64,000 nucleotides of DNA from assembly GCF_010731715.1 (NCBI RefSeq), contig NZ_AP022587.1, forward strand, positions 1,612,001 through 1,676,000. Direction: 5' to 3'. The DNA is from Mycobacterium stomatepiae. Lineage in GTDB: Bacteria; Actinomycetota; Actinomycetes; Mycobacteriales; Mycobacteriaceae. The notes under the pieces were generated by a model. The model saw only the letters and a program-made list of their open reading frames with translations. It did not search any database and had not been told where the DNA came from. Each line of letters starts with the position of its first letter. Position 1 is the first letter of the stretch. The position numbers and the translations under genes are program-made. Shown piece after piece: positions 649 through 54,390 of the stretch.

Positions 649-1170
649 TTACACCCGGCGGCGTTCCCGCTCGGCGTTCAGCTCGGCGAGGACGACCTCG
701 CAAGCCAGGTTCTGGCTGTAGCCGCGGCGGGCCAGCATTCCCACCAGCCGGCGAGTGATCCGCGTGTCGTCCGCACCGAGCGTGTCGCGCCGCAACTTGG
801 CCCGCACCAGTTCTTCGGCCCGGTCTCGCTCGGCGCCGGCGTCGAGGGCGGCCAGCGCCGTGTTGATGGTCTCTTTGTCGACGCCTTTGGTGTGCAGCTC
901 GGCGGCCAAGGCGCGCTTACTCTTTCCCGCGCGGGCGTGCCGGGACCGCACCCACTGTTCGGCGAAGTCGGCGTCATCCACCAGCCCGGCGGCGGCCAGC
1001 CGGTCGAGCACCCGGGCGCTGACGTCGCCGGGATATCCGCGTTTTGCGAGCTGACCGGACAACTCGGCCCGGGTGTGCGACCTCGCGGTGAGCAGGCGCA
1101 GGCACAACGCCCGCGCCTGCTCTTCGCGGGATGGCTCAGAAATCGACGGGGGCGGGCAAGACGTCGTCAT
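649..1170 (-). CDS. recX: RecX, regulator of RecA
   Basis: Small helical protein (173 aa) of the RecX family, which binds RecA filaments and limits recombinase and co-protease activity. The Arg/Ala-rich three-helix repeats typical of the family are seen ([21 protein letters not shown], then [13 protein letters not shown]). Its first 35 bp overlap the 3' end of recA in another frame, the same arrangement known from M. tuberculosis, so it is co-transcribed and probably translationally coupled to recA. Confidence 0.94.
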
Positions 1171-2176
1171 CGGTTACCACTGCGCCAATGCCCATCTTTT
1201 CCTTGATCTTCTTCTCGATCTCGTTGGCGATGTCGGCGTTCTCCATCAAGAAGTTGCGGACGTTCTCCTTGCCCTGGCCGAGCTGTTCGCCCTCGTAGGT
1301 GAACCAGGACCCGGACTTGCGGATGAAGCCCTGGTCCACGCCCATGTCGATCAGCGAGCCCTCTCTGCTGATACCCCGGCCGTAGAGGATGTCGAACTCA
1401 GCCTGCTTGAACGGCGGGGCCACCTTGTTCTTGACGATCTTGACCCGGGTGCGGTTACCGACCGCGTCGGAGCCGTCCTTGAGCGTCTCGATCCGGCGCA
1501 CGTCCAGGCGCACCGACGCGTAGAACTTCAAAGCCTTTCCACCCGTGGTGGTTTCCGGGCTGCCGAACATCACGCCGATCTTCTCGCGGAGCTGGTTGAT
1601 GAAGATCGCCGTTGTTCCCGAATTGTTCAGCGCACCAGTCATCTTCCGCAGCGCCTGGCTCATCAGCCGGGCCTGCAGGCCGACGTGGCTGTCGCCCATC
1701 TCGCCCTCGAGTTCCGCGCGCGGCACCAGTGCGGCCACCGAGTCGATGACCAGAATGTCCAGGGCACCGGAGCGAATCAGCATGTCGGCGATCTCCAGCG
1801 CCTGCTCACCGGTGTCGGGCTGGCTGACCAGCAGGGAATCGGTGTCGACGCCGAGTTTCTTGGCGTACTCCGGGTCCAGGGCGTGCTCGGCGTCGATGAA
1901 CGCCGCGACGCCGCCGGCCGCCTGGGCATTGGCCACCGCGTGCAGGGCAACGGTGGTCTTACCCGAGGACTCCGGGCCGTAGATCTCCACGACCCGGCCG
2001 CGGGGCAGCCCGCCGATGCCAAGGGCCACGTCCAGCGCGATGGATCCGGTCGGAATGATTGAGATCGGTTGACGTGTCTCGTCGCCGAGACGCATCACCG
2101 AGCCTTTGCCGTAGCTCTTCTCGATCTGGGCCATTGCCAGTTCGAGGGCCTTTTCGCGGTCGGGCGCCTGCGCCAT
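1136..2176 (-). CDS. recA: RecA recombinase, intein-free
   Basis: Central recombinase and SOS co-protease, 346 aa, full length. The Walker A motif GPESSGKT is at residues 67-74. The conserved core through [10 protein letters not shown] and the C-terminal acidic tail ([11 protein letters not shown]) are intact. M. tuberculosis RecA carries an intein after K251; here K251 is followed by V-A-P-P-F with no insertion, and there is no Cys at the splice position. The start is the ATG at 2174-2176. A PafBC-type promoter and a LexA box lie 55-118 bp upstream, so induction by both DNA-damage routes is expected. Forms an operon with recX. Confidence 0.98.
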
Positions 2177-2252: not shown

Positions 2253-2280
2253 GATTCGCTCGAACGATCCCCACAGTAGA

Positions 2281-2294
2281 CGAACACCTGTTCG
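2281..2294. promoter_or_regulatory. LexA (SOS) box between recA and the B12 riboswitch
   Basis: Perfect palindromic SOS box CGAACACCTGTTCG, i.e. GAAC (2282-2285), 4-base spacer, GTTC (2290-2293), matching the mycobacterial LexA consensus. It sits about 105 bp upstream of recA. It also lies only 28 bp before the first paired base of the cobalamin aptamer on the other strand, so it could act on both divergent transcripts. Confidence 0.9.
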
Positions 2295-2321
2295 ATTCGA
2301 GTTCGACACGCCGTACGGATT

Positions 2322-2448
2322 CGGTGTGGCAATATCGTCCGAAAAGGCGTCGACGGGCCCGCGTACTACTGAGGAAACCGGTGCGAATCCGGTGCGGTCC
2401 CGCCACTGTGATCGGGCACATCACGACCCGAGAGCCAGATACTCACCG
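2322..2448 (+). ncRNA. Cobalamin (B12) riboswitch aptamer
   Basis: Contains the conserved cobalamin aptamer elements in order: gaaaCCGGTGCGAATCCGG (from about 2378), GTCCCGCCACTGTGA (about 2397-2411) and GAGCCAGATAC (about 2432-2442). A closing P1 helix can be drawn between CGGTG (2322-2326) and CACCG (2444-2448). Such elements bind adenosyl- or methylcobalamin and usually shut off the gene behind them. The gene behind it is the FhuF-like Fe-S protein, 50-60 bases further on. It is read divergently from recA. The exact 5' boundary is uncertain by about 15 bases. Confidence 0.9.
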
Positions 2449-2469
2449 TCGGCGCTTCCTCACTAGACG

Positions 2470-2488
2470 CTGGGGCGGATCTCCCCAG
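2470..2488 (+). promoter_or_regulatory. Hairpin in the expression platform of the B12 riboswitch
   Basis: CTGGGG (2470-2475), a 7-base loop, then CCCCAG (2483-2488) form a perfect 6-bp stem. It ends right at the purine-rich AGAGAGG (about 2487-2493) that serves as ribosome-binding site for the following gene. No U-run follows, so control of translation initiation is likelier than termination. Stem seen directly; role inferred. Confidence 0.55.
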
Positions 2489-2497
2489 AGAGGCTGG

Positions 2498-3181
2498 ATG
2501 CGCACGCATGGATATCTCCGGCATGCTCGACGCAATATCGTCCTACAAGGGGTTTTCGCGCTGACCGTGGGCGGCGCCGCGACAGGATGGCACCCGGTCC
2601 GCCGGGACTACGCCGACGGCTTTGCCGGTTTGATCGACACCACCGCACAGCGCTACAACACCGCGGACCTACGGATCGGCGCCTCGCTGGTCCACCTCGG
2701 CCACGCCACCCGGCTGTGGTCACCGGTGCTGGCCTGCGCGTTGGCCCGCGGCGTCGTCCCGGACCTGACAGACCTGCAGCGTGCCGACGACGGGGCGCAG
2801 CTACGCCTGCCCAAACCCGTCGGAGAGCCGGTCACCGACGTCGCGGCACAGTTGTATCACGTTGTGGTGCAACACCATATGCAGCCGTTTGCGGCCGGCC
2901 TGCAGGTCAAACTGGCGCCTGCCCTGCTGGCGGGCAACATCGCGTCCGCGCTCGTCGGCGCGTCACGGGCGCTGCTCGCCGCCCGGCCCGACCTGCGCGC
3001 GCGGATCGTCGAGAGCACCGAAGCGCTGCTGAACACGGGCGTGCTGTCCGGGTCCGGCGCCATCACCGGCTCCCATCTGGGGTTCAAGCGCGACAGCTGC
3101 TGCCTGTTCTATCGTCTCCCCGGACGATCCGTGTGCGGCGACTGCGTGTTTCGCTCAGCGCCGCGAGCCGGCCGGCGCTGA
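2498..3181 (+). CDS. FhuF-like (2Fe-2S) protein under B12 riboswitch; 5' end probably frameshifted
   Basis: The body reads as a FhuF-like ferric/siderophore reductase family protein. It ends with the family's Cys motif (CCLFYRL then CGDC: CC-x10-C-x2-C), which binds a 2Fe-2S cluster. The open frame can start at ATG 2498, which has AGAGAGG just upstream, but codons before about 2552 have poor GC at third positions. An overlapping ATG at 2508 gives MDISGMLDAISSYKG with good third-position GC and then hits TGA at 2562. One extra base in the G4 run at 2549-2552 would join the two as SSYKG-VFALTVGG. So the gene is either frameshifted, misassembled, or starts at 2498. From memory, M. tuberculosis retains only a short Cys-rich fragment here (Rv2737A). 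Confidence 0.72.
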   Translation: MRTHGYLRHARRNIVLQGVFALTVGGAATGWHPVRRDYADGFAGLIDTTAQRYNTADLRIGASLVHLGHATRLWSPVLACALARGVVPDLTDLQRADDGAQLRLPKPVGEPVTDVAAQLYHVVVQHHMQPFAAGLQVKLAPALLAGNIASALVGASRALLAARPDLRARIVESTEALLNTGVLSGSGAITGSHLGFKRDSCCLFYRLPGRSVCGDCVFRSAPRAGRR

Positions 3182-54027: not shown

Positions 54028-54390
54028 AGGTGTCCGTACAGCCTCTCTGAGTTATTCAGCTGTTTCGCGTCGTCACCCGCGACCCGGAGGCCCGGACCAG
54101 CTCACCGGCCCGGAAGGACCCGCGAGCCACCCCTGCGAACAACCCTCAAAGAGTCTGAATACGGCTACGGCCGTCGATCGAAGCGGCCGACCTACCCCAG
54201 ATCCGGGGAGCCCGGCTGCCACTACCGAAGACCGCCCGATACAGACTGGGCTGTTCCCGTCGTGACACGCTGGAACGGAGCACGCGGATCTGCGTGGACC
54301 GCACCGTTTGCCCGGGCCAGACAGGCCCAGAACGCTCCCACTCTACATGGGCGAACTCGCCCACCAGAATGGTGTGGGATGGGCGCTGCG
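54028..54390. other. Non-coding region between rpsO and pnp
   Basis: 363 bp with no credible ORF. M. tuberculosis has the lipoprotein gene lppU in this place; nothing of it is visible. The stretch would form the pnp leader plus the rpsO 3' end. PNPase leaders are often structured and self-regulated in bacteria, so a structured 5' UTR is possible. GGTCCTTCC/GGGCC and CGGGCCTCCGGG segments near 54080-54120 look foldable. A hairpin follows rpsO (see next entry). Confidence 0.6.
54349..54362 (-). terminator. Hairpin 28 bp after rpsO
   Basis: GGGCGA, two bases, TCGCCC (perfect 6-bp arms), preceded on the minus strand by a second stem CCCACACC/GGTGGG. No U-run. A plausible intrinsic-type terminator or 3'-end stabiliser between rpsO and pnp. 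Confidence 0.45.

Follow-up and report, generated by a model that had tools for sequence, protein, structure and literature searches.

A cobalamin riboswitch before a FhuF-like [2Fe-2S] protein gene in Mycobacterium stomatepiae suggests a cobalamin reductase

In Mycobacterium stomatepiae, the gene for a FhuF-like [2Fe-2S] protein that lies divergent from recA is preceded by a cobalamin (vitamin B12) riboswitch aptamer, and the leader is probably a B12 riboswitch that shuts off translation of a FhuF-type cobalamin reductase when B12 is plentiful. The locus stands near one end of the stretch of DNA analysed here, 64,000 nucleotides of contig NZ_AP022587.1 (positions 1,612,001 to 1,676,000, forward strand), referred to below as the window. 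The genes that neighbour its relatives suggest that the protein may be a missing reductase whose substrate is vitamin B12 itself and not an iron carrier. The locus and its relatives give a candidate for the reductive B12 step in mycobacteria; a 2025 review of cobamides in M. tuberculosis lists decyanation and the crossing of the outer membrane by cobamides as steps not determined, and its passages on the subject name a PduO-type adenosyltransferase and no cobalamin reductase (PMC12713380). If the proposal is true, a fold classed with iron uptake has a part in the handling of B12 as well, and the genes that carry the annotation "iron reductase" or "(2Fe-2S)-binding protein" are misnamed.

The aptamer and the leader

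The complete B12 aptamer that the initial annotation had read at this locus is borne out by the Infernal search it had called for: the Rfam model RF00174 matches positions 2337..2464 (+) in its compact form with 55.8 bits, the gathering score being 31.5 (cmscan; E 3.8e-11 for the window as a whole), over the full model from position 1 to 189. The conserved core GTCCCGCCACTGTGA (2397..2411, +) and the B12-box-like GAGCCAGATAC (2432..2442, +, within the RF00174 match) are present as described. The P1 stem that closes the aptamer has to be redrawn: it had been given as CGGTG/CACCG, and the covariance model and 24 aligned leaders from related loci instead pair 2347-2356 with 2446-2455. The hairpin said to abut the ribosome-binding site is the regulatory hairpin P13 at 2470..2488 (+; stem 2470-2475/2483-2488, loop CGGAUCU), and it runs directly into the Shine-Dalgarno sequence AGAGG at 2489..2493 (+), which is likewise seen in the aligned leaders.

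Both helices are backed by compensatory changes in those 24 leaders, P1 with 97.9% of cells paired and two pairs changed on both sides, P13 with 92.4% of cells paired and one such pair. The three pairs together account for 15 cells with both-side changes, a figure reached in 0 of 500 column shuffles, and slid controls yield 0 or 1 such pair. Further, UCC at 2398-2400 within the core, which would supply the L5 side if a kissing loop forms, is complementary to GGA at 2477-2479 in the loop of P13 in 24/24 leaders, and CCUC at 2458..2461 (+), a possible anti-Shine-Dalgarno site, could pair with the GAGG at 2490-2493; the corresponding CCTC is found in 23 of the 24 leaders and is one base short in locus L006. 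The hairpin, the possible kissing loop and the possible anti-Shine-Dalgarno site suggest a translational OFF switch; the response to ligand and the manner of switching are inferred. The ligand would close the aptamer, the L5-P13 kissing loop would form, and P13 and the CCUC site would hide the Shine-Dalgarno sequence, such that translation of the FhuF-type protein would be turned off when B12 is plentiful and the reductase would be made when active B12 is short.

The FhuF-like protein and its locus

The open reading frame from ATG 2498 (2498..3181, +; 227 residues) matches PF11575 FhuF_C at 29.8 bits against a cut-off of 20.5, and the FhuF cysteine motif claimed for it, C-C-x10-C-x2-C, is there at 3089..3148 (+; PF11575, residues 198-217), its four cysteines invariant in protein alignments A1 and A3. 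The fold is that of an orthologue, which superimposes on Escherichia coli FhuF (PDB 7qp5) over 210 residues at 13% identity; this match came through a second look with VIA-align, the Foldseek structure search having returned none at E 0.001. In searches of PDB sequences, 7qp5 is found at E 6e-4 with a profile and at E 1.6 with the single sequence, where three unrelated chains have similar E values.

In the window's own gene, the frame is broken near its start. Most of the 23 named relatives begin their protein with a sequence like MDISGELAEISSYKGFFALTVGG, and relatives do have intact copies; the start that relatives use is ATG 2508, which here opens a frame (2508..2564, +) that encodes MDISGMLDAISSYKGFSR* and ends after 18 codons with a stop at 2562-2564. 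The remainder is open only from ATG 2498, which yields the 227-residue protein with an N-terminus (the first ~18 residues) foreign to the family. The break may leave the gene compromised in this genome, and it is conceivable, if rather unlikely, that the locus is here a recent relic in which the riboswitch is intact and the gene is broken and without functional product. The early end of the ATG 2508 frame, a window branch in the protein tree that is longer than its sister's (0.16 vs 0.045), and fragments or broken copies of fhuF elsewhere (L026, L180, L167) would fit such decay. On the other side, ATG 2498 sits 4 nucleotides behind the Shine-Dalgarno sequence and in frame with the remainder, the 206 codons behind the break contain no stop, and the ratio of nonsynonymous to synonymous substitution rates between the window gene and seven relatives (0.22-0.32) lies inside the range among those relatives (0.18-0.41), by which measure the gene behind the break is evidently under purifying selection. 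Given the absence of a stop and these ratios, the break either arose recently, does no harm to most of the protein, or is an error of sequencing. The relic reading covers this genome alone and does not compete with the interpretation of the family. Among the damaged copies is that of L167, from a genome of 4.5 Mb whose recA frame is oversized and may contain an intein; all that is left of fhuF there is an N-terminal fragment (residues 1-66, at 2311-2508), and a search for aptamer motifs found none of them.

The divergence from recA that had been claimed is as described, with recA at 1136..2176 (-), recognised by its match to the recA genes of related recA-adjacent loci; the other neighbours of fhuF are recX, a glycosyltransferase, and an LEH gene with a small open reading frame. 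Between recA and the fhuF leader lies a LexA/SOS-box-like palindrome, ACGAACACCTGTTCGA (2280..2295), with one mismatch to the box consensus TCGAACN4GTTCGA. Its core, CGAACN4GTTCG, is kept in 69/69 recA-adjacent loci (of overlapping species), and fhuF could come under recA's damage control through this shared LexA-like element. The gene at the corresponding place in M. tuberculosis is presumably Rv2737A; a literature search on it gave nothing. Elsewhere in the window, an Actino-pnp RNA (RF01688) is found at 54166-54236 (-) with 52.3 bits.

The genome itself, a single contig of 6.21 Mb, has three RF00174 matches. The initial annotation had counted the fhuF leader as a third kind of B12-riboswitch target in mycobacteria, and while the locus is real, the count needs qualifying. 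In this genome, another RF00174 match precedes a metE-type gene (79.8 bits), whose model scores fall below full-length cut-offs because the scanned locus ends inside the gene, and a sub-threshold match of 30.5 bits precedes cbtA (L003, G000:C1:4487502-4487597; CbtA by Pfam, CbtB by eye). Moreover, a third M. tuberculosis B12 switch, at rpfB, is counted in the 2025 review (PMC12713380).

Relatives, importers, dehydratases and PPE proteins

A survey of the same locus in other mycobacteria, also proposed at the outset, places fhuF beside recA in 23/23 loci of named genomes and finds the aptamer core in 18 of them; the core is absent, as is any RF00174 match over the cut-off, in M. alsense, M. ostraviense, M. 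gordonae, M. persicum and M. tilburgii. Among 46 fetched recA-adjacent loci, a part of those found that includes the window's own and overlaps the 23 named ones in species, RF00174 exceeds the cut-off in 27 (26/30 and 1/16). The P13 pattern is still matched without the aptamer core in L019, L026, L052, L054 and L078, and part of it can be made out by eye in L053 and L080, where the core is gone; because P13 sequence survives in these loci, it looks as though the aptamer has been lost repeatedly while the gene was retained. Rows of the protein tree that carry a riboswitch label (RF00174 or core motif) all fall in one 41-row set (Shimodaira-Hasegawa-like approximate likelihood ratio test 99), which also includes 8 rows without a riboswitch; the kansasii/gordonae-like rows lie outside it.

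Beyond the recA locus, the gene contexts that follow were read by eye from an open reading frame caller except where checked with Pfam. The nearest sister group (50-65% identity) has no recA in the fetched flank in any of 24 loci checked, and carries RF00174 over the cut-off upstream on the same strand in 27/33 genomes; the distance is 2.8-2.9 kb in 26 of these and 0.14 kb in the remaining one. The operon has the order binding protein, FecCD permease, ATP-binding cassette (ABC) ATPase, FhuF (domains verified in L122, others by eye). Neighbours of these importer-FhuF operons include a BluB equivalog in L119 (237 bits, cut-off 150), LamB/YcsF and CobW, and in L125 the same flanks enclose the riboswitch and fhuF with the importer genes absent. 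Some of the operons (L119-L131) lie near ZnuA, CobW-like and ribosomal protein S18 genes, an arrangement like that of a zinc-response island.

In a further group (31-39% identity), the importer ATPase and FhuF are one protein: in L059, ABC_tran spans residues 33-176 and FhuF_C residues 552-572, and in 14/14 fusion loci a single open frame contains both the P-loop and the FhuF motif. RF00174 lies upstream on the same strand in 10 of the 13 that were scanned (L070 fell outside the scan), and the fusion is present in named proteins of Mycolicibacter, M. xenopi, M. shimoidei, M. branderi and Rhodococcus. A more distant lineage has RF00174 upstream in 5/7 genomes tested (not in G013 or G261), directly before FhuF in G279, G041 and G012. 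In L171, a cysteine-rich protein of 135 residues (L171:8723-9127; CRGCCCGT) with no Pfam match, possibly a redox partner, is encoded between FhuF and a riboswitch-led gene set, and a related frame follows metE in L075.

Likewise, another FhuF lineage stands divergent from the small and large subunits of an adenosylcobalamin-dependent diol/glycerol dehydratase in 28/30 loci, the 30 being the top-scoring matches to one member among 296 genomes, that member included. A diol-dehydratase reactivase and a PduO-type adenosyltransferase are close by in the loci inspected. Reactivation of damaged coenzyme requires renewed reduction and adenosylation, and for this reason a reductase is expected at such loci. 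Across the family genomes, a FhuF match is found in 67/161, own genus included, among the matches listed; outside the genus, at least 19 of 41 FhuF matches (those down to E 1.2e-9) are preceded by RF00174 on the same strand at a distance of no more than 5 kb, a lower bound because the RF00174 matches listed end near 34 bits. The RF00174 matches compared come mainly from contigs bearing FhuF, and the others, by eye, include none within 5 kb of a counted match.

The fusion loci also bring in the PPE proteins. DUF7676 and PPE genes adjoin the ATPase-FhuF fusion genes, a PPE gene being present in 9/12 fusion loci read by eye (L057-L066, L068, L073), behind FhuF on the same strand in L061-L064 and opposite or apart in others. 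In L061, the set reads riboswitch-BtuF-BtuC-BtuD/FhuF-DUF7676, followed by a PPE gene (L061:5235-6872) whose best match in G104, a genome that we guess to be tuberculosis-like, is the PPE gene at G104:C1:1409171-1410865 with RF00174 directly upstream (563 bits, the next PPE there 271; 59% identity over 544/546 residues). The same gene sets put a PPE2-like protein next to a B12 importer. RF00174 directly upstream of a PPE gene is the arrangement described for ppe2 (PMC4428469, PMC12713380), and PPE2 was earlier suggested to be a cobalt transporter (PMC4428469, citing Rodionov 2003). Given that the PPE linked to importer and FhuF best matches the riboswitch-led PPE2-like gene, it is suggested that PPE2 belonged to a B12 import system. 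More broadly, and only tentatively, the FhuF-type proteins of Mycobacteriales may include dedicated cobalamin reductases that have gone unrecognised, as riboswitch orphans, as a domain of importer ATPases and beside adenosylcobalamin-dependent dehydratases; in the same B12 import system, PPE2-type proteins may serve as the envelope partner, which would explain the riboswitch of PPE2.

Alternatives and known systems

The riboswitch, the fusion to an importer ATPase and the dehydratase neighbourhood all point to cobalamin as the substrate, and it is from these that we infer it. The suggestion in the initial annotation that this Fe-S protein is of a reductase type and serves cobalamin uptake or the step from Co(III) to Co(II) is in this respect supported by comparative context. 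The FhuF-type protein would reduce Co(III) cobalamins, whether hydroxo-, cyano- or inactivated forms, by a single electron, and the resulting cob(II)alamin would pass to a PduO-type adenosyltransferase.

Several observations weigh against this interpretation. At the level of the leader, 143 of 500 shuffles reach the observed number of pairs changed on both sides, the kissing-loop bases are invariant in the 24 leaders, and the minimum free energy does not fall below that of shuffles (z +0.87), for which reason the case for the aptamer rests on the covariance model and on covariation and not on stability. At the level of context, kansasii/gordonae-like species keep the recA-adjacent fhuF without the aptamer, three of the 13 fusion loci (L066, L073, L074) have no upstream riboswitch, and the L122 binding protein scores weakly against BtuF and best with a putative F420-0 transporter model, itself below cut-off at 203 of 392 bits. 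The window's own genome has no riboswitch-linked importer: no BtuFCD-type operon (binding protein, FecCD permease, ATPase) is linked to the window's fhuF, and the one FecCD gene lies away from it with no RF00174 nearby. Because that sole FecCD gene is unlinked to any RF00174 match, the orphan is best read as serving B12 made or imported by other routes. Across genomes, where counts rest on listed or thresholded matches, 97/296 lack any match to the orthologue at E 1e-3 although RF00174 occurs in 267/297 among the matches listed, and 22 of the 41 matches in other genera have no upstream riboswitch among those listed. One homologue in another genus (L223) adjoins a siderophore-interacting protein, and the FhuF family is consequently not exclusively linked to B12.

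That last observation bears on an improbable alternative, that the protein is an ordinary ferric-siderophore reductase whose B12 riboswitch reflects an indirect link between iron and B12 supply. The FhuF fold and Fe-S motif would suit it, as would a homologue near a katG-like gene (L219, by eye) and the action of E. coli FhuF on ferric hydroxamates, as described in PMC8068687; the TIGR03951 siderophore-iron reductase equivalog is not reached (21.6 of 63.85 bits), and the riboswitch, the BtuD fusion and the dehydratase contexts speak against it. Equally doubtful is reduction of a Co(III)-metallophore that feeds cobalt to B12 synthesis and not B12 itself, which draws on the placing of cobalt uptake, too, under B12 riboswitches (PMC3766115), on a homologue beside CbtA (L228) and on the sub-threshold match before cbtA noted above, and which leaves the dehydratase neighbourhood unexplained, while fusion to a BtuF/BtuC-type importer fits B12 better, though a cobalt chelate could be its cargo. 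In the literature, no link between FhuF and cobalamin was found in the titles or abstracts listed, although supplements of regulon papers may list the gene; the only mention of FhuF in PMC7689651 is as an Fe-S enzyme tested with cobalt.

Compared with known systems, the proposed cobalamin reductase departs from E. coli FhuF, with which it has the fold and the C-C-x10-C-x2-C motif in common: identity in the structural alignment is low, the window protein stays below the siderophore-reductase cut-offs, and the family here appears in B12 contexts, not those of iron. The PduS and CobR cobalamin reductases would share its proposed role, the supply of reduced cobalamin for adenosylation; their folds are unrelated to FhuF, and they use flavin cofactors. 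The putative mycobacterial BtuFCD system MSMEG_4560-4558 has an importer gene set like those found beside FhuF, and differs in that its description in PMC8088520, in the part concerned with these genes, names no FhuF component and calls the function unknown; the window gene is by comparison an orphan without importer genes. The metE and ppe2 riboswitches of M. tuberculosis have the RF00174-type aptamer, the B12 box and proposed control at the translation start in common with the window's leader (PMC11260477, PMC12713380). In those switches an L5-L13 kissing loop has been tested; for the window's leader such a loop is a proposal. The target gene is another one, and a relay through an upstream open reading frame was neither looked for nor seen in the window; the aptamer is compact, as described for ppe2 and unlike the large metE form (PMC11260477, PMC12713380).
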